This document shows, in pieces, positions 34,158-62,657 of a stretch of 64,000 bases of DNA. The notes below the pieces were generated by a model. That model saw only the letters and a list, made by a program, of their open reading frames with translations. It had not been told where the DNA came from and ran no database searches. The position numbers and the translations under genes were made by a program. The stretch is from Nitrobacteraceae bacterium AZCC 2146 (GTDB lineage: Bacteria; Pseudomonadota; Alphaproteobacteria; Rhizobiales; Xanthobacteraceae). How positions within the stretch are numbered: the first letter of the stretch is position 1; each line of letters opens with the position of its first letter. The stretch lies in NCBI GenBank assembly GCA_036924855.1, contig JBAGRP010000001.1, positions 6,436,001 through 6,500,000 of the forward strand, written 5' to 3'.

Positions 34158-34180
34158 TTTGAAGCTTAAAACAATTGCGG
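34158..34180 (+). promoter_or_regulatory. Putative operator a (importer operon)
   Basis: TTTGAAGCTTAAAACAATTG, then CGG. The first 14 bases form a near-perfect dyad (TTTgAAGCTTaAAA). It lies 88 bases before the ATPase ATG. It is nearly the same as the site at 38185 before the matching binding protein. Confidence 0.65.
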
Positions 34181-34267
34181 TTTGCCGCTATGCTTTAGGG
34201 GTGAGCAGGATGGACTCGGCCGAGCCGTCGTGGTTGCAATGCGTTCATGGCCAATGAAGGACCGGGA

Positions 34268-35119
34268 ATGAAGGTGGTGTCGCTGCGATCGGACGCTCTC
34301 GCCGAGTCAGAACCGCTGTCCGGCCTCAAGCCGGCGTCGGCGATGATCCACATCGACCAGGTCTCGCAACGATTCCAGACCTCCGGCCGGCAAAGCCATC
34401 TGGCGCTGTCGGATATTTCGCTGACCATCGACGATGGCGCTTTCGTTTCGATCCTCGGCCCGTCCGGCTGCGGCAAGTCCACGCTGCTTTATATCGTCGG
34501 CGGCTTCGTCAGCCCGAGCGACGGCGTCGCCAAGGTCAAGGGCAAGGCGATCACGGGTCCGGGTCCGGATCGCGGTCCGGTGTTTCAGGAATTCGCGCTG
34601 TTTCCCTGGAAGAACGTGCTCGGCAATGTGATGTACGGCTTGCGCCAGCAGGGCGTGAAGCGCTCCGAGGCGGAAGCCAAAAGCCGCAAGCTGCTCGAAA
34701 TGGTCGGGCTCAAGGGCTACGAGAATTTTTATCCGAAGGAACTCTCCGGCGGCATGAAGCAGCGCGTCGCGATCGCGCGCACGCTGGCCTACAATCCCGC
34801 CGTCCTCCTGATGGACGAGCCGTTCGGTGCGCTCGATGCGCATACCCGCACCCGGCTGCAGAACGATCTGCTCAGCATCTGGGAGCGCGACCGCAAGACC
34901 GTTCTGTTCGTCACCCACTCGGTCGAGGAAGCCGTGTTCCTGTCCGACAAGGTGGTGGTGATGACCCGCTCGCCGGGCCGCATCAAGGTGGTGGTCGATA
35001 TCGACCTGCCGCGGCCGCGCAAACGCGCCGAACTGCTGCTCGATGCGCGTTACCAGAAATACGTCGTCGATATCGAGAAGTTGATCGACGACACCGGCGA
35101 AGACGAGATCCACGCATGA
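34268..35119 (+). CDS. ABC transporter ATPase, SsuB/TauB type
   Basis: Energy subunit of an importer for organic anions such as sulfonates or aromatic acids. From the ATG at 34268 (AAGGA ribosome site) it has 283 residues; an ATG seven codons upstream lacks such a site. Motifs are Walker A GPSGCGKS (64-71), signature LSGGMKQR (159-166), Walker B LLMDEP (180-185) and H217. Its stop overlaps the first permease gene. The substrate is inferred from the aromatic cluster, not from the sequence. Confidence 0.93.
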   Translation: MKVVSLRSDALAESEPLSGLKPASAMIHIDQVSQRFQTSGRQSHLALSDISLTIDDGAFVSILGPSGCGKSTLLYIVGGFVSPSDGVAKVKGKAITGPGPDRGPVFQEFALFPWKNVLGNVMYGLRQQGVKRSEAEAKSRKLLEMVGLKGYENFYPKELSGGMKQRVAIARTLAYNPAVLLMDEPFGALDAHTRTRLQNDLLSIWERDRKTVLFVTHSVEEAVFLSDKVVVMTRSPGRIKVVVDIDLPRPRKRAELLLDARYQKYVVDIEKLIDDTGEDEIHA

Positions 35120-35901
35120 TCACGCCGCGCGCGCTGCTGCAGAAATCGGCGCCGCTGTTCGCCTGCATCGGCCTGTTGTGCGCCTGGCAGGTGGCGTCGC
35201 TGCTGCTCAACACCGAAAGCTTTCCGACCGCGCTGGAGGCGATCCGCGCGGTGCCGTCGATCCTTGGCGACAAGGAGTCGCTGGTGAATATCGGCGCCTC
35301 GATCCGCCGCATGACGATCGGCCTGAGCCTTGCAGTCGTGTTCGCGATTCCGCTGGGTCTGCTGATGGGCCGCATCAAGGGCGTCGCGTCGTTCTTCAAT
35401 CCGCTCTTGATGGTGATCTATCCGGTGCCGAAGGCAGCCTTGATGCCGATCATCATGCTGTGGCTCGGCGTCGGCGATGTCTCCAAGACGCTGGTGATCT
35501 TCCTCGGTGTCAGCCTGCCGATCATCTATCACAGCTTCCAGGGCGGCAAGGCGGTGGAAGAGAAGATGCTGTGGTCGGGCGCTGCGATGGGCCTGTCATC
35601 GGCGCAGCGGATGTTTCGCATCGTACTCCCTGCGGCACTGCCGGAAATCCTCACGGGATGCCGCACCGGCCTGGTGCTGGCGCTGATCACCATGGTGACC
35701 TCCGAAATGATCGCGCGGCAGTCCGGCGCCGGCAACATCCTGTTCAACGCGCTCGACATGGCGCAGTACGACACCGTGTTCGCGATGATCATGATCATCG
35801 GTGCGCTCGGCATCTTCCTCGATGCCGCCTTCGAGAAACTGCGCGGCTCGCTGGTGCGCTGGTCGAAGCCGCAGCATGACATTCCCTTGAGCTTCTCATG
35901 A
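35116..35901 (+). CDS. ABC transporter permease, SsuC/TauC type (1)
   Basis: Inner-membrane channel subunit, 261 residues, with about six hydrophobic segments and the EAA-type cytoplasmic loop near EEKMLWSGAAMGLSSAQRMF-IVLPAALPEI. It is coupled to the ATPase before it (ATGA) and to the second permease after it. The two permeases probably form a heterodimer, unlike the homodimer of SsuC. Confidence 0.93.
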   Translation: MITPRALLQKSAPLFACIGLLCAWQVASLLLNTESFPTALEAIRAVPSILGDKESLVNIGASIRRMTIGLSLAVVFAIPLGLLMGRIKGVASFFNPLLMVIYPVPKAALMPIIMLWLGVGDVSKTLVIFLGVSLPIIYHSFQGGKAVEEKMLWSGAAMGLSSAQRMFRIVLPAALPEILTGCRTGLVLALITMVTSEMIARQSGAGNILFNALDMAQYDTVFAMIMIIGALGIFLDAAFEKLRGSLVRWSKPQHDIPLSFS

Positions 35902-36659: not shown

Positions 36660-36666
36660 CGAAGTT

Positions 36667-38108: not shown

Positions 38109-38184
38109 GGTGAATCAATTCCCGGCTGGCAGCCCGATCCAGTCGCGACCAATATAGGACATCCCGGGACATATTGCGCGATCA

Positions 38185-39415: not shown

Positions 39416-40387
39416 CTATTCGCTTGCTGTGCCAGACATCCGGCTATCGATCAGCAGATCCAGCGCATATTTGATGGTGGCGCGTTCGTCGTCGCTGAAC
39501 TGCTTCAGCAGTTCCGCCTCGTGCTTCATCGCAGCGGCTTGCACCGGTTTGACGCGGGCGCGGCCCTTGGCGGTGAGGTGCAGGGTGACGCGGCGGCGGT
39601 CGTTCGATGTGCTCTGGCGCTTCAGCAGTCCGTCGCGCTCCATGCGGTCGAGCACTTTTGTCAGGCCCGGCTGCTTCATCAGCGCCATCGCCGCGAGTTC
39701 GCCGACTGACAGGCCTTCGACATCCATCAGACAGGCCAGTACGCGCCATTCCGGCACCGTCAGATCCCAGTCCTTCAGCTTGGCGTGAAATTCGCCGGAG
39801 ACGTTGAAGCTCGCGCGCGCCAGCAAATAGGAGAGATAGTTGCGGGCGAAGCTGTTGCTGGCCAGCGGCGGCGCGCGGCGCAGGGCATGGTCGATCCGCC
39901 TGAGTTCGCCGGAATGAAAAATCAGCGGATCGTGATTGCGCTCGACGAAACGCACGACTTCGCCGACCAGGATGGTGTGATCGCCGCCGGGATAGCGCGC
40001 CCAGGTCCTGCATTCGAAGATCGGCGCCAGGCCATCTATCAGCGGCGCGCCGGTAACGCCGGGCGTGTGCTTGATATCGGCGAACTTGTCGGAGCCGCGG
40101 CGGCCGAACCGCATCGCCAGCTCGCCGTGATCGGCACCGAGGAAGTGCACCGCGAAGGCCTCGGCCTCGACGAAGGGATCGTGGCTCGGCGACGATTTGG
40201 CGACGCTCCACAGCACCAAAGGTGGATCAAGCGAGACCGACGAAAATGAATTCGCGGTCATGCCCACCGGACGATCGCCGTGGGTCGCGGTGACCACGGT
40301 GACGCCGGTGGGAAACTGGCCGAGCGCCTGGCGAAACGGCACCGGGCTGACAACCTGGGCAGCATTCGCGTTCCTGTCATCCGCCAT
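39416..40387 (-). CDS. Flavin reductase fused to a MarR domain (HPAH C1-like)
   Basis: From the ATG at 40387 it is 323 residues. The N-terminal half (about 15-170) is an FMN/FAD reductase domain (FRQALGQFPTGVTVVTA; GMTANSFSSVSLDPPLVLWSV; HDPFVEAEAFAVHFL). The C-terminal half (about 185-320) is a MarR winged helix with LTVPEWRVLACL, MKQPGLTKVLDRMERDGLL and SNDRRRVTLHLT. This is the architecture of the reductase component (C1) of Acinetobacter p-hydroxyphenylacetate hydroxylase, where the MarR-like part senses the substrate. A longer start at 40471 exists but would cover operator i. No oxygenase gene is adjacent, so its partner is open. Confidence 0.88.
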   Translation of the reverse strand: MADDRNANAAQVVSPVPFRQALGQFPTGVTVVTATHGDRPVGMTANSFSSVSLDPPLVLWSVAKSSPSHDPFVEAEAFAVHFLGADHGELAMRFGRRGSDKFADIKHTPGVTGAPLIDGLAPIFECRTWARYPGGDHTILVGEVVRFVERNHDPLIFHSGELRRIDHALRRAPPLASNSFARNYLSYLLARASFNVSGEFHAKLKDWDLTVPEWRVLACLMDVEGLSVGELAAMALMKQPGLTKVLDRMERDGLLKRQSTSNDRRRVTLHLTAKGRARVKPVQAAAMKHEAELLKQFSDDERATIKYALDLLIDSRMSGTASE

Positions 40388-40443
40388 GGGGTCGCCCGCT
40401 CTGAGGTCGCTGCAACCGCTTAAAATAGCGGCGCCGCGCTGTC

Positions 40444-40528: not shown

Positions 40529-41575
40529 ATGCTGGCAGATCGCATCGAGGCGAAATGGATCGACGCGTTCTGCGAGATCTTCGAGCGCTGCGCGGTGAAG
40601 CCGGGCGATACCGCGGCGATCCTTTCGGAGACGCAATCGCGTGCGCTCAACGTCCACATCGCCGAACTGGCGCTGCTGCGGATGGGCGCACGGCCGTTCC
40701 ACGTCATCGTGCCTACCCCGCGCAACAAGCAGATCGTGCCGGTGCGCTCGACCGGCGCGTCGGAAGCGATCCAGCAGCTCGGGCCGGTGGTATCGGCGCT
40801 GCAGCAGGCCGGTTTTGTGGTCGACTGCACCATCGAAGGTCTGATGCATGCCAAGGAAACGCCGGAAATTCTGAAGGCCGGCGCGCGCATCCTGGTGATC
40901 TCCAACGAACATCCCGAAGCGCTGGAGCGCATGGTGCCGGACAGCGCGCTCGAAAAGCGCGTCCGCGCGGCGGCGAAGATGTTGCGCGGGACCAAGCGGA
41001 TGCGCGTGACGTCCGCGGCGGGTACCGATCTCGACGTCGACATGGTCGGCGCTGCCACGGTCGGCGTCTGGGGCTGGACCGACAAGCCGGGTACGCTGGC
41101 GCACTGGCCGGGCGGCATCGTGGTGAGTTTTCCGAAGAGCAGCACCATCAACGGCACGCTGGTGATGGACGCCGGCGATATCAACCTGACCTTCAAGCGC
41201 TACCTGACCTCGCCGGTGCGAATGACGCTGAAGGACGACTATGTGGTTGATCTGCAAGGCGAGGGTGCTGATGCCGAGATGATGAAGCGTTATCTCGCCG
41301 CCTGGGGCGACCGCGAGGCCTATGCGGTCTCTCATGTCGGCTGGGGCATGAACCCCGCCGCGCGCTACGAGTCGCTGGCGATGTACGACCAGCGCGATAC
41401 CAACGGCACCGAAATCCGCGCGGTGGCGGGCAATTTCCTGTTCTCCACCGGCGCCAACGAATTCGCCGGCCGCTATACCGCCGGGCATTTCGATCTGCCT
41501 GTCATGAACACCACGATCGAACTCGACGGCGTTGCGGTGGTGAAAGCCGGCGTATTGCAGGATGTGTTTGGGTAA
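40529..41575 (+). CDS. NicX-like Fe(II) ring-cleavage dioxygenase (2,5-dihydroxypyridine dioxygenase family)
   Basis: 348 residues, the length of NicX. NicX opens 2,5-dihydroxypyridine to N-formylmaleamate in nicotinate breakdown. The iron triad of that enzyme (two His and one Asp) matches H269 (YAVSHVGWGM), H320 and D322 (AGHFDLPVMN), all at nearly the same spacing. Other shared blocks are GTLVMDAGDINLTF and GNFLFSTGAN. It is often mislabelled as an M29 peptidase. No other nic gene is present, so the real substrate could be another hydroxylated N-heteroaromatic or aminophenol. It is divergent from the flavin reductase fusion. Confidence 0.85.
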   Translation: MLADRIEAKWIDAFCEIFERCAVKPGDTAAILSETQSRALNVHIAELALLRMGARPFHVIVPTPRNKQIVPVRSTGASEAIQQLGPVVSALQQAGFVVDCTIEGLMHAKETPEILKAGARILVISNEHPEALERMVPDSALEKRVRAAAKMLRGTKRMRVTSAAGTDLDVDMVGAATVGVWGWTDKPGTLAHWPGGIVVSFPKSSTINGTLVMDAGDINLTFKRYLTSPVRMTLKDDYVVDLQGEGADAEMMKRYLAAWGDREAYAVSHVGWGMNPAARYESLAMYDQRDTNGTEIRAVAGNFLFSTGANEFAGRYTAGHFDLPVMNTTIELDGVAVVKAGVLQDVFG

Positions 41576-41677: not shown

Positions 41678-42670
41678 CTAGTTCCGGTCCAGCACCGGCG
41701 GTTTCGCCAAATCAAAGTGCCGCAGCAGATCGACGAATGCTGCCAGCCGCTGCTCGCGATAGGCATCGACATCCATCCCGGCGTAATCGAGAAAGCCTTC
41801 GCCGGATCGCAGTCCGACTTTGCCTTCGGCCATGTTGCGGCCGATGATCTCGGGTGCCGCGTAGCGATCGCTGTTCAGCGCGCCGGTCAGATACTGGCTG
41901 GCATAATGCAGGATATCGCCGCCGCCCCAGTCGATGAATTCCAAGAGGCCGAGCACGGCGAAGCGGAAGCCGAAGCCGTACTTGATCGCCTTGTCGATGT
42001 CGGCAGCGCTGGCGACGCCTTCCTCGACCATGCGCGCGGCTTCGTTCATGGCCAGCGCCTGGATTCGCGGCACGATGTAACCGGGCGTCGCAGCGCAGAC
42101 CACTGGCTTCTTGCCGATGCCTTCCAGTAGCTCGATCACGCGCGCGGTGATGGCGGGGTCGGTCGTAGCGCCGGGCGAGAGTTCGACCAGCGGCACGAGG
42201 TAAGCGGGATTGAGCCAGTGCGCGTTGAGGAAACGTTCGGGGTGTTCGACGGCGCTGGAAATATCATCCACGAGGATGGTGGAAGTCGTTGAAGCGATGA
42301 TCGGCGTTGGGCCGGCGAGCTTTGAGGCTTTTGCCAAAGCGTCGCGCTTGAGGTCGAGCACTTCCGGCACGCCCTCGAAGATAATCGCGGCGCCGCCCAG
42401 GGCCGCGCCGGCACCGGCTTCCGGCACCACGCTGACGCGGGCCATGAGGGTATCGACATCGGCCGATGTGAGCAGGCCGAGGCGCGACAGGCTCGCAAAC
42501 GTCTTTCTGATTTCGTCCAGCGCTTCGGCTTCCAGCGCCTTGAACTTGTCGGCGTCACGCGCCTTGAAATCGACGATGGCGACATGGTGGCCGGCATAGG
42601 CAAAGGCCACCGCAATGCCGCGGCCCATGCGGCCGGCGCCGAGGCAGGCGATCGCGGGGCGGGCGGTCAT
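41678..42670 (-). CDS. 3-hydroxyacyl-CoA dehydrogenase
   Basis: NAD-dependent oxidation of a 3-hydroxyacyl-CoA, the third step of beta-oxidation. It has 330 residues: Rossmann domain with GAGRMGRGIA (11-20), ASTTSTILVDDI, then the HWLNPAYLVPLVEL segment carrying the catalytic His and a helical C-terminal domain with TPGYIVPRIQALAMNEA. It is single-domain, without a hydratase part. Its ATG overlaps the opine-type dehydrogenase stop. A ring-derived hydroxyacyl-CoA is a likely substrate given the cluster. Confidence 0.92.
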   Translation of the reverse strand: MTARPAIACLGAGRMGRGIAVAFAYAGHHVAIVDFKARDADKFKALEAEALDEIRKTFASLSRLGLLTSADVDTLMARVSVVPEAGAGAALGGAAIIFEGVPEVLDLKRDALAKASKLAGPTPIIASTTSTILVDDISSAVEHPERFLNAHWLNPAYLVPLVELSPGATTDPAITARVIELLEGIGKKPVVCAATPGYIVPRIQALAMNEAARMVEEGVASAADIDKAIKYGFGFRFAVLGLLEFIDWGGGDILHYASQYLTGALNSDRYAAPEIIGRNMAEGKVGLRSGEGFLDYAGMDVDAYREQRLAAFVDLLRHFDLAKPPVLDRN

Positions 42671-43761
42671 GATTTGAAACCCTTGTGCAGCAGGGTCAGC
42701 AGCCCCTCGCGGTCGAGATCGCCGAAGCCGAGGCTTTGCAACGTGCGGCCGCCCTGCAAGAAGTTCTCACCACAGATCGCGCCGCCGATGGCGAGGAAGG
42801 ATTTTGCCAGCGGCGTCTCGACGCCGGCGAGTTTTGCGCAGGAGACGATGAAGGACAGGCCGACGCGGAGATCCTCGCGCATGTAGCGGTGCTCGCGCAG
42901 CACGATGTGTTCGCGCCAGTCGCCGGAGTCAGTGAGGCGGTCGTGGGAGCCGCGGCCATACATCCATTCCTCGCCATCCTTGGCGTAATGATGCGCCAGC
43001 GGGAAATGCGAGCCGCCATAACCGAAGGCTTCGCGCACTTTGATGCGTTCGTCGTCGAGCGCGTCGGTGACGCGGCGGATGGCCGGCTGGGTGCCTTCCT
43101 TGTGGATGTCCCAGGTCTCGAAATGTTCGAGCGGGCCAGCGTTCATCACGATCAGCGGCGGGTGAATGATCGGCCCGGCATTCATCAGCGCGCCGGACAA
43201 TGCATCGCCGCAGGCCTCGATCACGCCGGGGAAGGCCCGATCGATCACGGCGATGGCGTGATCGGAGAGGGTGAGCGGAAACACGCCGGTCGGCAGCCGC
43301 TTGGCGCGGATGGTGATGGCAACCTCGAACGGCCCATGCTTGCGCGCCAGCCAGGGCAGCGTGCCGGTCTCGGCAAAGGCGACGCTGGCGGTGTTGCCGA
43401 CCTCGTGGGCGGCCTTGGCGAAGATCATCGACCCGAAGGTCGCTGGCGGCAGATACACCACCTGGCCGTCCGTGAGATGCGGCGCCAGCTGGCGGGCGAT
43501 GTCGTGCTGGGCAAAGGCCGGCGCCGGGCACAGGATCAGCTCGGCGTCGCGGATCGCCTCGGCGATGTCGGTGGTTACCAAAGTGAGTTGGGTATCGTGG
43601 GTGCCTTGCGCATTCTTGACCACGATGCGCGAGCCGGCCTTGCGATGCTCGGCGACCGCCGCGGCATCGCGCCGCCACAGGCGGACATCATGGCCCTGCA
43701 GGGCAAAATCACCTGCCGCTGCAAACGAACCGTTGCCGCCGCCCAGAACTGCGATTTTCAT
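42667..43761 (-). CDS. Octopine/nopaline dehydrogenase family protein
   Basis: 364 residues. The N-terminal NAD(P) domain starts KIAVLGGGNGSFAAAGDFALQGHDV, and the C-terminal domain carries the NAD/NADP octopine/nopaline dehydrogenase fold with MNAGPIIHPPLIVMNAG, a GGSHFPLAHHYAKDGEEWMYG region and the expected His. Opine dehydrogenases reductively join an amino acid and a 2-oxo acid, or reverse this. Coupling to a 3-hydroxyacyl-CoA dehydrogenase (ATGA) is unusual. It may act on a secondary amine or an amino-carboxylate of the aminobenzoate route; that is a guess. Confidence 0.85.
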   Translation of the reverse strand: MKIAVLGGGNGSFAAAGDFALQGHDVRLWRRDAAAVAEHRKAGSRIVVKNAQGTHDTQLTLVTTDIAEAIRDAELILCPAPAFAQHDIARQLAPHLTDGQVVYLPPATFGSMIFAKAAHEVGNTASVAFAETGTLPWLARKHGPFEVAITIRAKRLPTGVFPLTLSDHAIAVIDRAFPGVIEACGDALSGALMNAGPIIHPPLIVMNAGPLEHFETWDIHKEGTQPAIRRVTDALDDERIKVREAFGYGGSHFPLAHHYAKDGEEWMYGRGSHDRLTDSGDWREHIVLREHRYMREDLRVGLSFIVSCAKLAGVETPLAKSFLAIGGAICGENFLQGGRTLQSLGFGDLDREGLLTLLHKGFKS

Positions 43762-43779
43762 AGTCTATCCTCTCTCAAC

Positions 43780-43918
43780 CGTCATGCCCGGGCGAGCGCG
43801 CGAAGCGAAGCCTCGTGCGCGATGTCCCGGGTATCCACGTCCTGTCGTTCGACAGTGAAGACGTGGATGGCCGGGACCACGGCGCGACGAGGTCGCGCCG
43901 CCTGCCCGGCCATGACGG
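43780..43918. repeat. Dispersed palindrome, family D copy 2
   Basis: CGTCATGCCCGGGCGAGC at the left is mirrored by GCCCGGCCATGACGGCG at the right, with ATCCACGTC and GACAGTGAAGACGTGGAT as the inner stem. It separates the acyl-CoA ligase from the opine-type dehydrogenase inside what may be one long operon. Confidence 0.85.
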
Positions 43919-43933
43919 CGTTTGTTGTTGGCA

Positions 43934-45457: not shown

Positions 45458-45490
45458 GTTGGCTTATCCGTGTTGAATATCAGCTTTGCT

Positions 45491-45622: not shown

Positions 45623-45628
45623 TGAACT

Positions 45629-51645: not shown

Positions 51646-53997
51646 ATGAAGATCGCGATCATCGGTGGCGGACCCGCGGGGCTGTATTCCGCGATCCTGC
51701 TGAAGAAGCAGCGGCCGCAGGCTGACATCACCGTCTACGAGCGCAACCGGCCGGACGATACCTTCGGCTTCGGCGTGGTGTTCTCCGACGCCACCCTCGA
51801 CAACTTCGAAAAATACGACCTGCCGAGCTACCGGCGCATCACCCAGGAATTCGCTTACTGGGACGACATCGCCGTGCATTTCCGCGGCACCGTACACCGC
51901 GTCGGCGGCAATGGTTTCTGCGGCTGCTCGCGCCGCACGCTGCTGATGATCCTGCAGGAGCGCGCCCGCGAACTCGGCGTCCATCTGATGTTTGAAGCCG
52001 ACGTCGACGACGAGAGCCGCTTCGCCGATGCCGATCTGATCGTGCTGGCCGACGGCATCAACAGTCACTTCCGCAACAAGTACATCGAGCACTTCGAGCC
52101 CGAAGTCGACCTGCGCTCCAACAAGTTCACCTGGATGGGCTCGACCCGGCCGCTCGACGCCTTCACCTTCCTGTTCGAGGAAACCGAGTGGGGCCCGTTC
52201 ATCGCCCACGCCTATCAGTATGAAGCGGGACGTTCGACCTGGATCTTCGAGACCGACCCGGAGACCTTCAAGCGCGCCGGGCTGGAAGGTCTGAGCGAGC
52301 AGGAATCCGCCGATCGCATGGCGGAAATTTTTGGTTGGTTCCTCGAGGGCCACAAGCTGCTGATCAATCGTTCGATGTGGCGCAATTTCCCGATGATCCG
52401 CAACAAGCGCTGGGTCAAGGACAACATGGTGCTGCTCGGCGACGCCAAGGCGACGGCGCATTTCTCGATCGGCTCCGGCACCAAGCTGGCGATGGAAGAT
52501 GCCATCGCGCTGTACGAGTCGATGGCGCGCGCCCCGACGGTGGACGCCGCGCTGCTGGACTACGAGCACGGCCGCCGCGAGGAGACCGAGAAGATCCAGC
52601 ACTCCGCCGATGTCTCGCTGGTCTGGTTCGAGCACGTCGATAGGTTCTGGGATTTCGACCCCGTGCAGTTCGCCTTCGGCGTCATGACGCGAGCAAAAGC
52701 CATCACCTACGACAACCTCACTTTGCGCGCGCCGGAGTTCGTGCGCGAAGTCGACAAGGCCTTTGCGCAGCAGGTCCGCGCCAAGGGATTTGATGTCGAT
52801 GTCGACAAGCCGGCGGCGCCGATGTTCCAGCCGCTGAAACTGCGCGAAATGACGCTGGCGAACCGCGCGGTGGTGTCGCCGATGTGCATGTATTCGGCGA
52901 AAGAGGGCGTGCCCGGCGATTTCCATCTGGTGCATTACGGCTCGCGCGCCATCGGCGGCGCGGGACTGGTGTTCACCGAAATGGTCTGTGTCGGCCGCGA
53001 CGCTCGTATCACGCCCGGCTGCGCCGGCCTGTGGACCGACAAGCAGCAAGCCGCGTGGAAGCGCATCGTCGATTTCGTGCATGAGAATTCGGCAGCAAAG
53101 ATTTGTTTGCAGCTCGGCCATGCAGGCCGCAAGGGCGCTACCAAGCTGATGTGGGATGGTATGGACCGTCCGCTGGCCGAGGGCGGCTGGGATGTGCTGT
53201 CGGCCTCGCCGATTCCCTATTATCCGGACAGCCAGGTGCCGCGCGAAATAGACCGCGCCGCGATGGATGCCGTGAAGGCCGAGTTCGTCGCCGCCGTCAT
53301 GCGCGGCGATGCCTGCGGCTTCGACATGCTGGAGCTGCACTCGGCCCACGGTTATCTGCTCGCCAGCTTCATCTCGCCGCTGACCAACAAGCGCACAGAT
53401 GAATATGGCGGCGTGCTTGCCAATCGGCTGCGCTTCCCGCTGGAAGTGTTCGAGGCGATGCGCGCGGCGTGGCCGTCGCACAAGCCGATGTCGGTGCGCA
53501 TCTCCGCCACCGATTGGGCCGAGGGCGGCATCACCGGCGATGATGCGGTGAAGATAGCGCGCGCCTTTGCTGAACTGGGCGTCGATCTCGTCGATATCTC
53601 CACCGGCCAAACCGTGCGTGATGCGCAGCCGATCTACGGCCGCATGTTCCAGACGCCGTTCTCCGAACAGGTCCGCAACGAAGGCCGCGTCGCCACCATG
53701 TGCGTCGGCAACATCACCACGGCCGATCAGGTCAACACAATCCTGGCCGCCGGCCGCGCCGATCTCGTCGCGCTCGGCCGCCCGCATCTGGTCGATCCGT
53801 CCTTTACGCTGAAGGCCGCGGCCTGGTATGGCGCGAAAGACGCCTATTGCCCGCCGCAATACATGCCCGGCAAGGAGCAGATCTTCCGCAACAGCATCCG
53901 CGACCGGCAGGATTTCGACGACCTGAAAATTAAGGCTAAGCCGAAGACCCGTGCCGAGTTGCGCGCCGAGGCCACGAAGCCGCTTGCGGCGGAATAG
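51646..53997 (+). CDS. Fused 2-aminobenzoyl-CoA monooxygenase/reductase (or salicylyl-CoA 5-hydroxylase/oxidoreductase)
   Basis: 783 residues with two flavin parts. Residues 1 to about 390 are an FAD monooxygenase of the hydroxylase class (GGGPAG at 7-12; [39 protein letters not shown]). From about 394 it is an old-yellow-enzyme reductase ([24 protein letters not shown]565 and H568 in [25 protein letters not shown]). In Azoarcus evansii this fusion hydroxylates 2-aminobenzoyl-CoA at C5 and then reduces the ring, giving a non-aromatic 2-amino-5-oxo-cyclohexenecarboxyl-CoA. The aminobenzoate-CoA ligase at 62.7 kb would supply the substrate. Salicylyl-CoA remains an alternative. Confidence 0.93.
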
Positions 53998-55495: not shown

Positions 55496-55951
55496 TCACG
55501 CGCCCGGAGGCGGCGGCAGGAAGTGGATGTTGTATTCGGCGGCGAGTGCCACGACGTCGGCGGGATTCTGGTTCTTCATGTTGTGGATGCCCCAGAACAG
55601 ATCGTAGAGCCGGCGGCTCGGCGACACCCAGAACAAGACTTTCGCGGACTGATCCGACTTGTTGAAGATGCCGTGCGGAATACCGCGCGCCAGCCGCACC
55701 AGATCGCCCGGCGTCGCCTGGGCATCGGAGCCGGCCAGCATGAAGTCGAGCTTGCCTTCGAGGATGTAGAGATACTCGTCCTGGTCGGGATGGATGTGCG
55801 GCGGCACGAAGGTGCCGGGCGGAAACGTCGCGTGCCACGAGAACGAATCCTCGGTGCAGTTTTTCGGCACATAGGTCTGGCCCAGAATATTCCAGGAAAT
55901 TCCCTGCATGCCTTCATTGGCCCGGGTGATGCCGGCGATCTCTGTTTTCAT
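55496..55951 (-). CDS. Small cupin protein (2), sister of the one at 49285
   Basis: 151 residues; a single cupin with VPPHIHPDQDEYLYILEGKL and RLARGIPHGIFNKSDQSAK. It is clearly paralogous to the 49285 cupin: both share SWNILGQ near the start, the GIPHG-FNKSD segment, LFWVSP and an ending in FLPP. Both keep the two His and the Glu that hold the metal. Metal-bound small cupins can be ring-cleaving or decarboxylating; the reaction here is not known. It stands convergent to the PhzS-like gene. Confidence 0.88.
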   Translation of the reverse strand: MKTEIAGITRANEGMQGISWNILGQTYVPKNCTEDSFSWHATFPPGTFVPPHIHPDQDEYLYILEGKLDFMLAGSDAQATPGDLVRLARGIPHGIFNKSDQSAKVLFWVSPSRRLYDLFWGIHNMKNQNPADVVALAAEYNIHFLPPPPGA

Positions 55952-55995
55952 GGTGTTGGTTTCCTTCCTTGGGGTCGTCTCTGAGCTATCGTTTT

Positions 55996-56088
55996 GTCAT
56001 TGCGAGGAGCGAAGCGACGCGGCAATCCAGACAGCCGAACATTCGAAAGAACTGGATTGCTTCGTCGCAAGGGCTCCTCGCAATGACG
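55996..56088. repeat. Dispersed palindrome, family A copy 5
   Basis: GTCATTGCGAGGAGCGAAGC is mirrored by GGCTCCTCGCAATGACG; GGCAATCCAG and CTGGATTGCTTC are inside. It lies between the cupin 2 start and the end of the Liv operon. Confidence 0.85.
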
Positions 56089-56105
56089 GTTGTGAGGTCA
56101 TCGAA

Positions 56106-56804
56106 TTACACATGCAGAAAGCGATCCTTGATGGTTGGATCGCCCTTGAGTTCGGCCGACGTGCCGGTCCAGACCACGCGGCCCTTTTCGATGATCACGT
56201 GGCGATCGGCGAAGGCAGCCAGCGCATCGACGTTCTTGTCGATCACCAGAATCGACTGATGCTCGGCCTTGAGCTTCTTCAGGCAATTCCAGATCTCGAG
56301 CCGGATCAGCGGCGCGAGGCCTTCGGTGGCCTCGTCGAGGATCAGCAGCTTTGGATTGGTCATCAGCGCGCGGCCGACCGCCAGCATCTGCTGTTCGCCG
56401 CCGGACAGTTGCGTGCCGAAATTGCCGCGGCGTTCCTTCAGCCGCGGAAACAGCTCGTAGACGTCTTTCAGCGTCCAGCGCGCCGGCGGCCGGCGCACCG
56501 CGGCGGTGGCGATCAGGTTTTCTTCCACCGTGAGCGTCGGGAAAATCTGCCGGCCTTCCGGCACCAGTCCGATGCCCGCCTGCGCGATGCGATAGGAGGG
56601 CAGGCCAGTGAGTGGCTGGTCATCGAAGGTGACAGCGCCGCCGGTCGGATGGATCAGCCCCATGATGGCATTGATCGTCGTGGTCTTGCCCATGCCGTTG
56701 CGGCCGAGCAGGGTGACGACCTCGCCGGCGCCGATATTCAATGAAATATCGAACAGCACTTTTGCCGCGCCATAGGCTGCCTGCAGATTGGAGACGTTGA
56801 GCAT
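56106..56804 (-). CDS. livF: Branched-chain-type ABC transporter ATPase LivF
   Basis: 232-residue ATPase with Walker A GRNGMGKT (34-41), LSGGEQQMLAVGRAL and LLILDEATEGL. The start overlaps the livG stop by one base (TGATG). It is the last gene of a complete livKHMGF set in the order SBP > H > M > G > F. Liv-type importers in aromatic clusters commonly carry aromatic acids rather than amino acids; here that is inferred from context. Confidence 0.94.
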   Translation of the reverse strand: MLNVSNLQAAYGAAKVLFDISLNIGAGEVVTLLGRNGMGKTTTINAIMGLIHPTGGAVTFDDQPLTGLPSYRIAQAGIGLVPEGRQIFPTLTVEENLIATAAVRRPPARWTLKDVYELFPRLKERRGNFGTQLSGGEQQMLAVGRALMTNPKLLILDEATEGLAPLIRLEIWNCLKKLKAEHQSILVIDKNVDALAAFADRHVIIEKGRVVWTGTSAELKGDPTIKDRFLHV

Positions 56805-57556
56805 CAGGCCGCCTCCTCGCCGAGATAAGCGGCTCGCACTTCGGCGTTGTCGCGGATGCTCTGTGGCGTACCGGACGCGATGATACGGCCATAGACGAGT
56901 ACGGAGACGCGATCCGCCAGCGCGAACACTGCGTCCATGTCGTGCTCGATCAGCACGATCGGCAATTCGCGCCGCAACTCCTGCAGGGTGTTGATCAACC
57001 GCTGCGATTCGTCGTGGCTGGTACCGGCGAGTGGTTCGTCGAGCAGCAGCAGTTTTGGTTGGGCGGCGAGCGCGATGGCGATTTCGAGCTGGCGCTTTTC
57101 GCCATGGGACATCTGCCCGGCCGGCACGCTTGCACGCGCCGCAAGGCCGAAGCGCGCCAGCAGCGCCATCGCTGTATCGTTCAGCGTGGGCTCCGCTGCG
57201 GCGTTGCCGAAGAAAGAGAAGCTCGAGCCGCTGCGCGCCTGCACGGCGAGCGCGACATTTTCCAAAGCCGAGAAGCGCGGCAGGATCGAGGTGATCTGGA
57301 ACGAGCGTGCCAGCCCCAGCCGGGCGCGTTGCGACATCGGCAACTTCGTCACGTCCTGGCCATCGAAGATGATGCGGCCGGAGTCGGACGGCGCGAGGCC
57401 GGAGATCTGGTGGATCAGCGTGGTCTTGCCGGCGCCGTTAGGGCCGATGATGGCGTGCAGCTCGCCGGCCTCGATATTGACAGAGACGTCGTCGGTGACG
57501 CGCAGTGCGCCGTAATTCTTGCAGAGGTTCTGCAGCTGCAGCGGGGCGGTGCTCAT
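56804..57556 (-). CDS. livG: Branched-chain-type ABC transporter ATPase LivG
   Basis: 250 residues from the ATG at 57556; longer starts run far into livM. Walker A GPNGAGKT (38-45), SHGEKRQLEIAIAL signature and LLLLDEPLAG are present. The signature reads MSHGE instead of LSGGE, as in many LivG proteins. The ATG overlaps the livM stop (ATGA). Confidence 0.94.
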   Translation of the reverse strand: MSTAPLQLQNLCKNYGALRVTDDVSVNIEAGELHAIIGPNGAGKTTLIHQISGLAPSDSGRIIFDGQDVTKLPMSQRARLGLARSFQITSILPRFSALENVALAVQARSGSSFSFFGNAAAEPTLNDTAMALLARFGLAARASVPAGQMSHGEKRQLEIAIALAAQPKLLLLDEPLAGTSHDESQRLINTLQELRRELPIVLIEHDMDAVFALADRVSVLVYGRIIASGTPQSIRDNAEVRAAYLGEEAA

Positions 57557-58548
57557 GGCTTGCTCCCGAGCAGGCCGCCGATGCCGCCGCGGGCGTACAG
57601 CACCACCAGGATCAGGATCGGGCCGAAGATCAGCGCCCAATGTTCGGTGTAATGCGACAGGATATCCGCGAGCAGGCTGAACACCGCCGCGCCGATGATC
57701 GCGCCATGCAGCGAGCCGAGGCCGCCGAGCACGATCACGAAAATCAGATCGCCGGAGCGCTGCCAGGTGGTGAAGGCCGGGCTGACGAATTCGGTCTGGT
57801 TGGCGAGCAGGCATCCGGAAACGCCGGCGATCATGCCGGCGATGACATAGGCGGTCAGCTGGTAGCGATAGGGCGCAAAGCCGATCGCTTCCATGCGCAC
57901 CGGATTTTCGCGGATGCCGCGCAGCACCCGGCCGAAGCGCGAGGCGACGATGCCGCGCAGCAGCAGATAGGCACCGAGGAGGAAGCCGAACACGACATAG
58001 TACAGCACGATGTCGTTTTTCAGGATTCTGGAGCCGAACAGCGTGCTGCGCGAGGCCAGTGTCAGACCGTCGTCGCCGCCATAGGCCGCGAGCGAGGTGC
58101 CCAAGAAATACAGCATCTGGCCGAAGGCCAGGGTAATCATGATGAAATAGACGCCCTTGGTGCGCAGCGAGATCGCGCCGGTGAACAGGGCGAACAGGAA
58201 CGAGACGGCGAGCGCGACTGCGAGCTGGACGAAGCCGTCATTGATGCCGTGGCTGGACAGGATCGCCACGCTGTAGGCGCCGAGCCCGACGAAAGCGGCA
58301 TGGCCGAAAGAGATCATCGCGCCATAGCCGATCAAGAGATCGAGCGACATCGCGGCGAGCGCGAGGATCATGATCCGCGTCACCAGCGCGAGAATGAACG
58401 ACTGCGGCCCGTACAAGGCGAGCAGCGGCACCAGCGCGAACAGGGCGAAGACGACCAGCGGCAAGACGAACACGCGGCCGGGGCGCACGGGCGCGCTGAG
58501 GGCAGGCGAAACGGGAGTGTCGAGGTCGATGAGATTGTTCACGCTCAT
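57553..58548 (-). CDS. livM: Branched-chain-type ABC transporter permease LivM
   Basis: 331-residue inner-membrane permease with about nine hydrophobic segments, including SLDLLIGYGAMISFGHAAFVGLGAY and the coupling loop RGIRENPVRMEAIGF. It starts six bases after the livH stop and overlaps livG, as part of one operon. Confidence 0.94.
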   Translation of the reverse strand: MSVNNLIDLDTPVSPALSAPVRPGRVFVLPLVVFALFALVPLLALYGPQSFILALVTRIMILALAAMSLDLLIGYGAMISFGHAAFVGLGAYSVAILSSHGINDGFVQLAVALAVSFLFALFTGAISLRTKGVYFIMITLAFGQMLYFLGTSLAAYGGDDGLTLASRSTLFGSRILKNDIVLYYVVFGFLLGAYLLLRGIVASRFGRVLRGIRENPVRMEAIGFAPYRYQLTAYVIAGMIAGVSGCLLANQTEFVSPAFTTWQRSGDLIFVIVLGGLGSLHGAIIGAAVFSLLADILSHYTEHWALIFGPILILVVLYARGGIGGLLGSKP

Positions 58549-58554
58549 GTCCCG

Positions 58555-59475
58555 CTATTGCTTCGACGGGAACAGGCCGGATGGCCGGAAGAACAACACC
58601 GCGGCCATCAGGATATAGATCAGCATCGGCGCGATGGCGCGGCCGGTCTGGCTCGCCGTGGCGGGATCGAGCAGGACGCGCAGCAGCGTCGGCGCGAAGA
58701 AGCGCCCGAGCGTATCGACGAGGCCGATCAGCAGTGCCGCGATGAAAGCGCCGCGGATCGAGCCGATGCCGCCGATCACAATCACCACGAAAGCGAGGAT
58801 CAGCACGTTGTCGCCCATGCCGGGCTCGACCGAGAGGATCGGCGCCACCATGGCGCCGGCGAAACCCGCCAGCATGGCGCCGACGCCGAACACGATGGTG
58901 AAGAGGAAGCGGATGTTGACGCCGAGCGCGGAGACCATCGCCGCGTTGCTGGCGCCGGCGCGGACCAGCATGCCCAGGCGGGTCTTGTTGACGACGAAAT
59001 ACAGTGCGAGGCCGACAGCCAGGCCGACGGCAATGATGACGAGGCGATAGACCGGATACAGCATGCCGTCGGTGATCTCGATGGTGCCGGACAGCGCGTC
59101 GGGGATCGGCACGTTCAGCGGTGCCGCGCCCCAGACGAATTTCACGGCTTGATTGAGGAAGATGATGACGCCGAACGTCGCCAGTACCTGGTCGAGATGG
59201 CTGCGGTCGTAAAGGTGTCGAAAGATCAGCACTTCGAGCAGCAGCCCGAACGCCAGCGCCGTCGGCAAAGCGAGCGCCAGGCCGAGGAGGAAGCTGCCGG
59301 TCATGGCGGTGAAGGCCGCGACGAAATAGGCGCCGACCATATACTGCACGCCGTGGGCGAGATTGATGAAGTCCATCACGCCGAACACCAGCGTCAGCCC
59401 GGCGGCGATCAGGAACAGGATCAGCCCGAACTGCAGGCCGTTCAGGATCTGGACGAGGGCAAGTGTGAGGGTCAT
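58555..59475 (-). CDS. livH: Branched-chain-type ABC transporter permease LivH
   Basis: 306-residue permease with the usual LivH start LVQILNGLQFGLILFLIAAGLTLVFGVMDFINLAHG and the coupling region near RAGASNAAMVSALGVN. It lies 257 bases after the binding-protein gene, a gap filled largely by a family E repeat, and six bases before livM. Confidence 0.94.
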   Translation of the reverse strand: MTLTLALVQILNGLQFGLILFLIAAGLTLVFGVMDFINLAHGVQYMVGAYFVAAFTAMTGSFLLGLALALPTALAFGLLLEVLIFRHLYDRSHLDQVLATFGVIIFLNQAVKFVWGAAPLNVPIPDALSGTIEITDGMLYPVYRLVIIAVGLAVGLALYFVVNKTRLGMLVRAGASNAAMVSALGVNIRFLFTIVFGVGAMLAGFAGAMVAPILSVEPGMGDNVLILAFVVIVIGGIGSIRGAFIAALLIGLVDTLGRFFAPTLLRVLLDPATASQTGRAIAPMLIYILMAAVLFFRPSGLFPSKQ

Positions 59476-59553
59476 GCGGCCTGGTTACCAATCTTGCTGC
59501 CGCGGGCAATGAATCGCGGAGCTATACTCTGTAGCCGCAACTGGCCTTCTTAA

Positions 59554-59704
59554 CCTCGCCCCGCACTTGCGGGGGAGAGGTCGGATGTCGCGCGCAGCGC
59601 GATATCCGGGTGAGGGGCCGGGCATTGCGTATAAATCTTCTTCAGCATTCGCGGTTCGGAAGAGCCCCTCACTCCGACCCTCTCCCCGCAAGAGCGGGGG
59701 GAGG
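59554..59704. repeat. Dispersed palindrome, family E copy 3 (long form)
   Basis: CCTCGCCCCGCACTTGCGGG at the left and CTCTCCCCGCAAGAGCGGGG at the right, with GGTGAGGGGC and GCCCCTCACT as inner arms. It lies inside the liv operon between the binding-protein and livH genes and may lower expression of the membrane part. Confidence 0.85.
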
Positions 59705-59732
59705 AAGAAGCGAGCGGCCTTTGCGCAACGAC

Positions 59733-60908
59733 TTAATTGCTCGGCGTGCAGTCCTTGGCGTAGCGATCGGCGTAGTTGGTGAACACCTTTTCCACGATCT
59801 CGGTCTGGTACTTGCCGTCGGCGCGCTTGGCGACCTTGGTAAAATAGAAGTCCTGGATCGGGTAGCCGTTGGCGCTGTACTTGAACCCGCCGCGCAGCGA
59901 GGTGAAGTCGGCCTTCTTCATCGCCGCGGCCACCTTGGTCTTGTCGGAGAGATCGCCCTTCAGCGACGTGACGGCGCTGTTGATCAGCATCGCCGCGTCA
60001 TAGGACTGGAACGCGTAGGTGGCGGGTACGCTGTTGTAGGCGGCCTCGTAGGCGGCGACAAACTTCTTGTTCTGCGCCGTGTCGAGGTTAGGCGCCCAGT
60101 TCGAGCCGCCGAACATGCCGACCGCCGCATCCTGCTGTGCAGGCAGCGTCGATTCGTCGACGGTGAAGGCGGACAGGAACGGGATGCGGTCGGCGAGGCC
60201 GGCCTGCTTGTACTGCTTGACCAGGTTCACGCCCATGCCGCCGGGCATGAAGGTGAAGACCGCGTCGGGCTTCAGCGCGGCGATCTTGGAGAGTTCAGCC
60301 TGGAAATCCAGCGTGCCGAGCGGCATGTAGGATTCCTCGACGACCTCGCCCTTGAAGTCCATCTTGAAGCCGGCGACCGAATCCTTGCCGGCCTGATAGT
60401 TCGGCACCAGCAGATAGACGCGCTTGTAGCCGCGGTCCTGCGCGACCTTGCCGAGGATCTGGTGGATCTGGTCGTTCTGATACGAGGTGACGTAGAAGAA
60501 CGGGCTGCATTCCTTGCCGGCGTAGCTCGACGGACCGGCGTTCGGGCTGATCAGGAAGGTCTTGTTCTCGATCACCGGCTTGTGGATCGCCTGCAGGATG
60601 TTGGAGAAGATCGGGCCGACCACGAAGTCGACCTTGTCGCGCTCCAGCAGGCCCTTGACCTTGGTGACGGCGACGTCGGGCTTGAGCTCATCATCGACGA
60701 CGATGACTTCGACGTCCTTGCCACCCATCTTGCCGCCGAGGTCCTTGACCGCGAGGTTGAAGCCGTCGCGGGCCTGCTGGCCGAGCACGGCGCCGGCGCC
60801 GGACAGCGACACGATCACGCCGACCTTGATCTTTTCCTGCGCGACAGCCTGCCCGGCTGCGACGCTCATCAGGACGGCCAGGCCGGCCAATTTGATCTGC
60901 TGCTTCAT
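59733..60908 (-). CDS. livK: Periplasmic binding protein of the Liv-type importer
   Basis: 391 residues from the ATG at 60908, which has GAGGAGA seven bases before; a start 15 codons upstream has none. Signal peptide KLAGLAVLMSVAAGQAVAQ precedes EKIKVGVIVSLSGAGAVLGQQ. The two-lobed type I fold includes VDFVVGPIFSNILQAIHKPV and PSSYAGKECSPFFYV. This form resembles aromatic-acid binders of Rhodopseudomonas more than leucine binders, from my reading; the ligand needs testing. Operator g lies about 153 bases upstream. Confidence 0.9.
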   Translation of the reverse strand: MKQQIKLAGLAVLMSVAAGQAVAQEKIKVGVIVSLSGAGAVLGQQARDGFNLAVKDLGGKMGGKDVEVIVVDDELKPDVAVTKVKGLLERDKVDFVVGPIFSNILQAIHKPVIENKTFLISPNAGPSSYAGKECSPFFYVTSYQNDQIHQILGKVAQDRGYKRVYLLVPNYQAGKDSVAGFKMDFKGEVVEESYMPLGTLDFQAELSKIAALKPDAVFTFMPGGMGVNLVKQYKQAGLADRIPFLSAFTVDESTLPAQQDAAVGMFGGSNWAPNLDTAQNKKFVAAYEAAYNSVPATYAFQSYDAAMLINSAVTSLKGDLSDKTKVAAAMKKADFTSLRGGFKYSANGYPIQDFYFTKVAKRADGKYQTEIVEKVFTNYADRYAKDCTPSN

Positions 60909-61060
60909 GATCTCTCCTCTGTCGGCCGCTTTACGTGGCCGAAATCCCGCCAACCCAAATAGTGTCTCGCCTCAGCTTATTCTGAGGATGGCAGCCGCCG
61001 CAAGCAAAGGAGTCGCGCGAAAACCATCGCAAAAGCCCATGCAAGCGGCAGGCCAATTTG

Positions 61061-61084
61061 TTTGAACCTTAAAGAAATATCCGG
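61061..61084 (+). promoter_or_regulatory. Putative operator g (liv operon / marR)
   Basis: TTTGAACCTTAAAGAAATAT, then CCGG. It carries both the dyad and the ATATCCGG extension, and lies midway between the binding-protein and marR starts. Confidence 0.65.
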
Positions 61085-61136: not shown

Positions 61137-61152
61137 CCTTGAAGGTCAAAGG
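61137..61152 (+). promoter_or_regulatory. Secondary dyad upstream of marR
   Basis: CCTTGAAGGTCAAAGG is nearly self-complementary and agrees with CTTGAAG..TnAAA of the operator family. It lies about 83 bases before the marR ATG. It could be a lower-affinity autoregulatory site. Confidence 0.4.
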
Positions 61153-61234: not shown

Positions 61235-61729
61235 ATGATTCTCGATTCCGAGACCAAGGCCGTCGAACTTCCAGATGATCACGGCGATGAATTGCGCCTG
61301 TGGCTGCGGCTATTGACCTGCACCACCCTGATCGAGGGCGAGGTGCGCAGCCGGTTGCGCGAGCGCTTCGACGTCACTCTGCCGCGCTTTGACCTGATGG
61401 CACAGCTCGACAAGGTGCCGGACGGCATGACGCTGTCGGATGTCTCGAAGCGAATGATGGTGTCGAACGGCAACGTCACCGGCCTGGTCGAGCGCCTCGT
61501 CGAATCCGGCCACGTCGATCGCCGCACGTCCGAGACCGATCGCCGGGTCCAGGTGATCCGGCTGACGAAACTCGGCCGCGCCGAATTCCGCAAGATGGCC
61601 GAAGAACACGAGACCTGGATCGCCGAAATCTTCACCGATCTCGCGCCAAAAGATGTCCGCGAATTGATGCGGCTGCTGGCCAAGACCAAGGCCTCGGCGC
61701 AGAAAGCGGCGCAGGACAAGGCTCTGTGA
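61235..61729 (+). CDS. MarR-family transcriptional regulator
   Basis: 164 residues: winged helix-turn-helix with LPRFDLMAQLDKVPDGMTL, MMVSNGNVTGLVERLVESGHV (recognition helix) and a wing SETDRRVQVIRLT, plus dimerisation helices at both ends. MarR proteins usually repress catabolic genes and let go when an aromatic or aryl-CoA ligand binds. It is the strongest candidate reader of the operator family. Its stop overlaps the hydrolase start (GTGA). Confidence 0.92.
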   Translation: MILDSETKAVELPDDHGDELRLWLRLLTCTTLIEGEVRSRLRERFDVTLPRFDLMAQLDKVPDGMTLSDVSKRMMVSNGNVTGLVERLVESGHVDRRTSETDRRVQVIRLTKLGRAEFRKMAEEHETWIAEIFTDLAPKDVRELMRLLAKTKASAQKAAQDKAL

Positions 61730-62544
61730 GCACGGCGGTCGATCTCGAGGTCGAGTACAACAACCGCGCGCGGGTGCCCGGCCATCCCGCAGATATCGCC
61801 GGCTGGGCGCGCGACGCCAAGGTCTATCGCGAGACGCATCCTGGTTGGCGCGTCATCCCTTATGGCGCAGGCGCGCGCCATACCGTCGATTTCTTCCCCG
61901 CCGAGAATATTGGCCCGATCGTCGTCTTCATCCATGGCGGCTACTGGCAGGCGCTGGACAGTTCGTTCTTCAGCCATCTCGCCGGCGGCCTCAACGCCCA
62001 TGGCATCAGCGTCGCGATTCCCAGCTACGATCTCTGCCCGAACGTTTCGGTCGGTGACATTATCGAGCAGATGCGCGCCATGACGCGCGAGCTCGCAAAG
62101 CTCGGGCAGCGGCTGGTGATATCAGGCCATTCCGCCGGCGGCCATCTCGCCGCCTGCATGCTGGCGACGGAATGGCGCGCGCTCGACGCGGCCTTGCCGG
62201 CGGATCTGGTTATCGCGGCCTATACGATTTCCGGGCTGTTTGATCTGGTTCCATTGGTGCCGACTTCGGTCAATATTCCATTGCATCTGAATGACGTCAG
62301 CGCCCGCGAGGTCAGTCCGCTGTTCTGGCCCATGCCATCGCGCGGCAGTCTCGATGCCGTGGTTGGTGGCGACGAGAGTGCGGAGTATTTTCGGCAGAGC
62401 CAGACCATTGTGGACGCGTGGGGCGTCGGCATCGCGACGCGTTTCGAGGCGCTCGCGGGCGCCAACCATTTTACTGTGATCGCGCCGCTGGCCGATCCGC
62501 AGTCGCCGATGACGCTGCGTTTGAAGCAATTGGCGCAGCGTTAG
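61726..62544 (+). CDS. Arylformamidase-like alpha/beta hydrolase
   Basis: 272 residues from a GTG that overlaps the marR stop. Its motifs match animal and fungal kynurenine formamidases: HGGYWQ (70-75, oxyanion), GHSAG (134-138, S136), VVGGDESAEYFRQS (D216) and GANHFTVI (H248). Such enzymes remove a formyl group from N-formylkynurenine; the same chemistry would free anthranilate from N-formylanthranilate. It sits between the MarR gene and an aminobenzoate-type CoA ligase, which makes an anthranilate-releasing role attractive. The bacterial KynB family is different, so I give no symbol. Confidence 0.85.
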   Translation: MSTAVDLEVEYNNRARVPGHPADIAGWARDAKVYRETHPGWRVIPYGAGARHTVDFFPAENIGPIVVFIHGGYWQALDSSFFSHLAGGLNAHGISVAIPSYDLCPNVSVGDIIEQMRAMTRELAKLGQRLVISGHSAGGHLAACMLATEWRALDAALPADLVIAAYTISGLFDLVPLVPTSVNIPLHLNDVSAREVSPLFWPMPSRGSLDAVVGGDESAEYFRQSQTIVDAWGVGIATRFEALAGANHFTVIAPLADPQSPMTLRLKQLAQR

Positions 62545-62633
62545 GCGGTATTTGCCTAAACTTCCCGCGCCTCTATTCGCCCGCATTGCAAAAAATCCGT
62601 TGTGTGGCCGGTCCGGGCAGTTGCGCCAATATG

Positions 62634-62657
62634 TTTTAAGTCTAAAATGATATCCGG
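62634..62657 (+). promoter_or_regulatory. Putative operator h (CoA ligase)
   Basis: TTTTAAGTCTAAAATGATAT, then CCGG. The core TTTTAAGTCTAAAA is a dyad. It lies 40 bases before the ligase ATG, which has ACAGGAG upstream. Confidence 0.65.

Follow-up and report, generated by a model that had tools for sequence, protein, structure and literature searches.

A palindromic operator shared by the promoters of a predicted 2-aminobenzoyl-CoA gene cluster in Nitrobacteraceae bacterium AZCC 2146, and its probable MarR-family repressor

A 64,000-nucleotide stretch of the Nitrobacteraceae bacterium AZCC 2146 genome (contig JBAGRP010000001.1, positions 6,436,001 to 6,500,000; hereafter the window, numbered from its first base) carries in its second part a cluster of aromatic catabolism genes whose promoters share a 14-bp palindrome, YTTKARNNYTMAAR. 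These palindromes are probably the operators of one MarR-family repressor, encoded at 61235, that would control the genes of a 2-aminobenzoyl-CoA (anthranilate) pathway. That the shared operator defines a regulon, as proposed in a first-pass annotation of the window, is strongly supported by its conservation in sequences of relatives outside the data of that annotation. Gene families were assigned by Pfam, NCBIfam and PDB comparisons, and the regulon would comprise about 25 genes, operon membership being deduced from spacing and strand.

The first-pass annotation listed nine sites with one common pattern, YTTKAANNYTAAAA. Five of them match it exactly (34158, 40444, 47805 on the minus strand, 49811 and 62634), three with one mismatch (47953, 51598 and 61061), and the site at 38185 with two. 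The window contains five exact and 15 one-mismatch oriented matches to this pattern, compared with means of 0.00 and 0.14 in dinucleotide shuffles. The palindrome YTTKARNNYTMAAR, which was fitted to the listed sites themselves, is matched exactly by all of them except 38185, so that eight sites form one family. Scanning the 7.64-Mb genome (G000) gave 14 exact palindrome sites, and 12 for the reversed control pattern. Eight of the 14 fall within the 28.5 kb between 34158 and 62647 of the window (0.4% of the genome), all of them before cluster genes, and the other six imply a background density of roughly 0.02 sites per 28.5 kb. In the same region 359 column-permuted palindromes had on average 0.13 matches; the best of them, near-copies of the true pattern, reached five, compared with eight for the true one. 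The idea of a regulon thus survived a genome scan asking whether the motif is equally common elsewhere.

The sites are two-fold symmetric and are present in target promoters as well as in the regulator's own promoter (61061 and 61138, before the MarR gene). With up to one mismatch allowed, no site was found between 1 and 34157, in agreement with the earlier remark that the first 34 kb lack the motif, and only the eight exact sites and 61138 were found between 34158 and 64000. The operators lie 34–160 bp from the flanking gene starts of the present gene models (27 to about 155 bases in the first-pass annotation). The sequence ATATCCGG, said to follow the sites often, is exact only at 61061 and 62634 and is not conserved in relatives, and it was rejected as a part of the operator. 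No convincing regulon member was found around five of the six exact sites outside the window, those whose surroundings were read: 2496975, 2504183 and 5917799 are inside open reading frames, 940688 is more than 500 bp from any listed start, and 5734903 is ambiguous, being inside minus-strand frames and 20 bp before a plus-strand frame (the sixth site is 7064540). Within the genus, bare pattern counts are weak: 10–15 palindrome sites per genome that is at least 94% complete and 4–15 in all 18 genomes, compared with 3–14 for the reversed control in both sets. The signal is the position of the sites.

Conservation was followed in promoters of genes at least 60% identical to those of the cluster, in 21 joined stretches (window included) and 80 loci of the fused monooxygenase/reductase gene described below (ACMR), two genomes being in both sets; sites with up to one mismatch were counted. 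A site was present in 19/19 hydrolase promoters (all exact, window included), 7/8 promoters of the ABC ATPase (exact, window included), 31/32 of LivK, 52/60 of ACMR, 27/32 of the SDR gene and 3/3 of the flavin reductase-MarR fusion. Counts were lower for MarR (29/48), the ligase (25/41), acyl-CoA dehydrogenase 2 (14/49, with an upstream window that overlaps that of the hydrolase, so that some sites are shared), NicX (3/9) and the cupin (4/19, matched at 44–56% identity); several of the low counts come from genes placed behind others in a likely operon in distant clusters. No site was found before the substrate-binding protein (SBP) gene or the malonyl-CoA decarboxylase (MCD) gene (0/3 promoters each). 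In stretches of the same genus the same promoters keep the site while its two central bases vary; the few exceptions are G017 and G005, with no exact site before the SDR gene, and G017, with none before LivK/MarR. The one-mismatch site at the 61138 position is kept in 16 of the 18 same-genus MarR loci (window included), and Microvirga, Stappia and Pseudorhodoplanes loci share the form TTTTAAGCTTAAAA.

Two other locations in the genus were noted. CTTTAGGCTTAAAG or a close variant lies near position 4000 of five loci (L194, L195, L196, L197 and L210, from G011, G012, G001, G010 and G013), between genes that, judged only by their sequence starts, are efflux-adaptor-like and exonuclease III-like; it is possible that this locus is a further regulon member. 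An exact site, TTTTAAGCCTAAAA, is at position 4001 of L204 and L205 (G010 and G001), about 313 bp before an RND-pump-like gene, also named from its sequence start only.

The ninth listed site is a different element. TTTGAAGCATGAAA (38185-38198; G000:C1:3805631-3805644) has 23 exact matches in 17 of the 18 genus genomes, all 23 before copies of the gene for a nitrate/sulfonate-type binding protein, and is missing at only two of the 25 copies of that gene. It was rejected as a member of the operator family since it has two fixed departures from the dyad, is invariant, and accompanies the binding-protein gene, even a paralogue with unrelated neighbours (dihydroxy-acid dehydratase and 3-hydroxyisobutyrate-dehydrogenase-like); no decarboxylase gene was found near that paralogue. 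It is a real, separate conserved element that possibly serves a different regulator. Its first eight bases are similar to those of the 34158 site, and the same MarR may bind it. Malonyl-CoA decarboxylase had entered the proposed regulon through 38185 only; this element goes with the binding-protein gene and gives the decarboxylase no support as a member. The main operons of both importers, the ligases, the monooxygenase/reductase, the dehydrogenases, a cupin and the NicX-like enzyme adjoin an operator or belong to a likely operon with one.

Which protein binds the operator was addressed in the 80 ACMR loci, the best 80 of at least 586 confirmed, which reach at most 10 kb from ACMR. Sites were scored if they had no more than one mismatch and lay in the 250 bp preceding ACMR, and MarR orthologues if they reached 49% identity. 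A site was present in 32 of 41 loci with a MarR orthologue (about 0.7 expected), and in 11 of 39 without (Fisher p 1.4e-5, uncorrected for kinship); for loci with nearly full flanks the figures were 26/29 and 5/23 (Fisher p 6.8e-7, likewise uncorrected). The proportion of loci with a site was 11/12 at MarR identities of 85% or more (0.23 expected from shuffles), 21/29 at 49–79% (0.44), 1/12 for weaker matches (0.42), and 10/27 where the fetched stretch contained no match to MarR (0.69). Seven more distant whole genomes encode this MarR near ACMR; six of them carry such a site upstream of ACMR, as an exact copy in G019 and G021 and with one mismatch in G020, G022, G034 and G037. The recognition helix of the 61235 protein (VSNGNVTGLV) is largely conserved among the alphaproteobacterial orthologues where the operator is kept. 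The stand-alone MarR, one of two candidate binders put forward originally, is thus the likely binder, judging from its co-occurrence with the site.

Several observations weigh against this assignment. Nine of the 41 MarR-bearing loci have no site before ACMR; in one of them (L124) a site stands before the ligase gene ahead of ACMR instead, and another (L168) holds a second ACMR copy whose sibling carries sites. Genome G024 encodes a MarR 87% identical, after ACMR, and has only a two-mismatch site. Eleven of the 39 loci with no close MarR in the fetched stretch carry a site, several of these loci being cut by contig ends. Betaproteobacterial-type orthologues (L153, L154, L167 and L183, about 51–53% identity) have a one-mismatch site in one case out of four. 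The helix of this type has TGG for SNG, and such loci are mostly devoid of the site; the correspondence between helix and site is not strict, however, as two Roseomonas-type orthologues combine TGG with a site.

Three loci from Jiella, Aurantimonas and Fulvimarina (L162, L163 and L166) have exact sites in fetched stretches that contain no match to MarR; there the regulator may be encoded further away.

Most likely the cluster encodes the degradation of anthranilate via 2-aminobenzoyl-CoA. One cluster holds, at the family level, an aryl-CoA ligase, a fused FAD monooxygenase/old-yellow-enzyme (OYE) reductase (ACMR) and beta-oxidation enzymes, and close relatives of the ligase at 62697 are named 2-aminobenzoate-CoA ligase by a source, by annotation and not by assay. 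The fused protein, the names of the ligase relatives and the beta-oxidation enzymes together fit the anthranilate route as outlined in the available portions of PMC4539516 and PMC3534580. It is conceivable, if rather improbable, that operator and MarR are as proposed and that the pathway serves salicylate (via salicylyl-CoA) or another aromatic acid: the NCBIfam model PRK08255, whose cut-off of 1078 is exceeded by ACMR (1125.8), is named bifunctional salicylyl-CoA 5-hydroxylase/oxidoreductase, a name that keeps salicylate among the candidate substrates. Against salicylate stand the names of the ligase relatives and the fused reductase half of ACMR, which we take to be the architecture of 2-aminobenzoyl-CoA monooxygenase/reductase. 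The reaction of that enzyme is given in the consulted parts of PMC4539516 and PMC3534580.

The second candidate binder, the flavin reductase-MarR fusion encoded at 39416-40390, carries a MarR domain, adjoins the 40444 operator and is present in 16 of the 18 genus genomes, and it might act as a DNA-binding regulator alone or with the 61235 protein. We regard this as improbable. The whole genomes G019, G020, G021 and G022 (92–99% complete) contain no match to the fusion at E 1e-40 and keep MarR, ACMR and the site before ACMR, and the fusion helix MKQPGLTKVLD is dissimilar to VSNGNVTGLVE. Its flavin reductase domain followed by a MarR-like domain is the arrangement of an HPAH C1-type reductase (187.9 bits, where NF045919 has a cut-off of 340; the same architecture does not imply identity of the enzyme), and in the HPAH C1 reductase the MarR-like domain serves ligand control of the reductase. 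Several main clusters lack the fusion, which is then encoded elsewhere in the genome. Because of its absence where MarR, ACMR and the site are kept and of its unlike helix, the fusion is not supported as a general operator binder. It is likely a target in the regulon.

The fusion belongs with the NicX-like gene to a block, MCD-SBP-fusion-NicX (36753-41575 of the window), that changes place among relatives. It is inside the main cluster in G000 and G017, and also, without SBP, in G006; it is outside the main cluster in G011, G013 and G016, read directly, and in G001 and G010, judged by the spacing of flanking sites; G012 has a main cluster without the block and copies on another contig. The NicX module is therefore unlinked in at least six relatives, and it retains its operator. 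NicX is present in 17 of the 18 genus genomes, and the operator lies 85 or 89 bp before it in all 17 copies read (12 exact, five with one mismatch), an 18th copy being at a contig end. In six Bradyrhizobium loci NicX follows importer permease genes inside the main cluster. Both arrangements, the operator kept when unlinked and the location in the main cluster of Bradyrhizobium, tie NicX to the pathway. The NicX-like protein aligns over residues 20-341 with PDB 7cn3, and the two share SH(V/I)GWG and H-x-D (HFDLP/HLDIP) motifs, which we take to be iron ligands. 5-Hydroxyanthraniloyl-CoA forms under NADH limitation, according to earlier work cited in the part of PMC3534580 consulted, and we may speculate that the NicX-type enzyme acts on a derivative of this compound. 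A tentative and rather unlikely extension is that a single repressor with a genome-split regulon links the 2-aminobenzoyl-CoA pathway with a ring-cleaving branch not described before, in which the NicX-like dioxygenase and the fusion, unlinked in several species, would remove a hydroxylated intermediate (e.g. 5-hydroxyanthranilate) and the MarR domain of the fusion would be a ligand-sensing brake on the reductase and not a DNA binder. In G016 an RND efflux pair (HlyD-type and AcrB-type; L296, 3506-8073) adjoins the unlinked NicX module.

The position of the operator within promoters was compared with that of upstream TTGC sequences. TTGC stands exactly 13 bp before the operator in 22/22 distinct ligase promoters, 9 bp before it in 26/27 SDR promoters, 13 or 14 bp before it in 28/48 ACMR promoters and 13 bp before it in 5/13 promoters of acyl-CoA dehydrogenase 2. 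If TTGC marks the beginning of the -35 box, the -10 region would fall on the dyad's right arm (TAAAAT) or directly behind it; the operator would then overlap the core promoter, which would fit steric repression at those promoters. No fixed-distance TTGC was found in the hydrolase, LivK, MarR, ABC ATPase and NicX promoter sets, which is a point against the scheme at those promoters. The overlap with likely -35/-10 positions and the fixed-distance TTGC of the ligase, SDR and some ACMR promoters would also suit an AT-rich core-promoter element of the cluster that is not a regulator site. This explanation is improbable in view of the two-fold symmetry with varying central bases, the small number of sites in the genome, their absence at up to one mismatch from the first 34 kb, the promoter sets with no fixed TTGC, and the co-occurrence of the site with one MarR across orders. 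Binding by another regulator such as the AraC-type protein encoded just after the ligase (64873-66072 in window numbering, in L029), a neighbour found in 12 of 13 same-genus stretches, is very improbable, as the gene has no match (E 1e-20) in seven stretches of other genera or in the 80 ACMR loci (genes farther than 10 kb from ACMR being missed there), many of which keep the operator, and as AraC sites are usually direct repeats, unlike this palindrome.

For the MarR protein encoded at 61235 we propose the following mode of action, by repression rather than activation. When no inducer is present, dimeric MarR bound to the 14-bp palindrome within the promoters would block transcription of the 2-aminobenzoyl-CoA (anthranilate) pathway genes, the importers and the accessory modules, and would limit its own expression via 61061/61138. 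MarR would be released by a pathway intermediate, for which the substrate's CoA thioester is the most plausible candidate. The sites and genes concerned are collected in Table 1; the two cupin genes, 49300-49734 and 55499-55951, are about 50% identical and both are in the regulon.

Table 1. Operator sites and genes of the cluster, in window coordinates
Feature	Position	Strand	Remark
Operator TTTGAAGCTTAAAA	34158..34171		Before ABC importer operon (ATPase and two permeases, 34247-36659, plus)
Fixed element TTTGAAGCATGAAA	38185..38198	+	Before substrate-binding protein gene (38265, plus); two departures from the dyad; probably outside the operator family
Flavin reductase-MarR fusion	39416..40390	-	HPAH C1 reductase architecture; likely target, not regulator
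Operator CTTTAACATTAAAA	40444..40457		Between divergent fusion and NicX-like genes
NicX-like protein (2,5-dihydroxypyridine 5,6-dioxygenase family)	40529..41575	+	PDB 7cn3, E 1.9e-52
Probable operon: alpha/beta hydrolase, acyl-CoA dehydrogenase, AMP-forming ligase, opine-dehydrogenase-like, 3-hydroxyacyl-CoA dehydrogenase	41678..47739	-	From strand and spacing
Operator TTTTAGACTTAAAA	47805..47818		Before hydrolase operon
Operator CTTTAGGTTTAAAA	47953..47966		Before acyl-CoA dehydrogenase 2 (48002-49180, plus)
Operator CTTGAAGTCTAAAA	49811..49824		Between cupin gene (49300-49734, minus) and SDR/enoyl-CoA hydratase (49865-51506, plus)
Operator CTTTAGGGTTAAAA	51598..51611		Before ACMR and a second monooxygenase
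ACMR, fused monooxygenase/old-yellow-enzyme reductase of the 2-aminobenzoyl-CoA monooxygenase/reductase type	51646..53997	+	NCBIfam PRK08255
Probable operon: branched-chain-type ABC importer (LivK, H, M, G, F) and cupin	55496..60953	-	
Operator TTTGAACCTTAAAG	61061..61074		Between LivK (minus) and MarR (plus)
One-mismatch site CTTGAAGGTCAAAG	61138..61151		83 bp before MarR; new relative to the first-pass list
MarR-family regulator, proposed operator binder	61235..61729	+	PF12802 1.4e-12, PF01047 1.1e-9
Alpha/beta hydrolase, likely in operon with MarR	61726..62544	+	
Operator TTTTAAGTCTAAAA	62634..62647		Before CoA ligase gene starting at 62697
Benzoate-CoA-ligase-like protein	62697..64000 (past window end)	+	TIGR02262, 363 bits, just below the 375.25 cut-off; 555 aa in L029

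Aromatic pathways under the control of a local MarR repressor are well known. CouR, a CoA-thioester-sensing MarR repressor, is likewise the local repressor of a CoA-dependent aromatic route; its pathway and operator differ. The 2-aminobenzoyl-CoA pathway of Azoarcus evansii was reportedly described by Schuhle et al. in 2001. At the family level it resembles the present cluster in its 2-aminobenzoate-CoA ligase, fused monooxygenase/reductase and beta-oxidation enzymes; unlike that pathway as described in the consulted parts of PMC4539516 and PMC3534580, the cluster also includes importers, cupins, a NicX-like enzyme and a reductase-MarR fusion, and those parts give no regulator or operator. In quinaldine degradation by Arthrobacter Rue61a, transcriptional control also lies beside a CoA-dependent anthranilate route; the regulators are PaaX-related and not MarR, and the portion of PMC3534580 available gives no operator for them.

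The closest parallel in organization is IadR (MarR_73) of Variovorax auxin degradation, a MarR repressor beside an aromatic catabolic locus, with a short operator before the operon and release by the pathway substrate (PMC9613470, in the part consulted); an analogous release is proposed here. The same text gives IadR one binding site, compared with eight exact sites in one cluster here, one of them in the unlinkable NicX module, and the enzymes differ. Close kinship of the two regulators is not supported: the 61235 protein matches IadR at the family level only (PDB 7kfo, E 4.3e-06, 30.2 bits), whereas its best PDB match is 3boq with 83.4 bits. In the literature searched, no publication was recognised as describing this regulator or operator; subscription journals are mostly outside that literature, so a description may be in print.

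In conclusion, the new features are the recruitment of the NicX module and the size and genome-split form of the regulon. The CoA-dependent, probably anthranilate, route of many alphaproteobacteria, including Bradyrhizobium species, can be provided with an operator, its probable regulator and a list of genes. According to the consulted part of PMC9613470, anthranilate is the product of iad loci, and B. japonicum USDA110 breaks the plant hormone auxin down to it. Anthranilate formed by iad loci could feed the present pathway. Accessory genes of unclear role (the NicX-like enzyme, the reductase-MarR fusion, the cupins and the second monooxygenase) become testable members of the pathway, and the 14-bp operator could be used to find unlinked genes of the regulon in other genomes.

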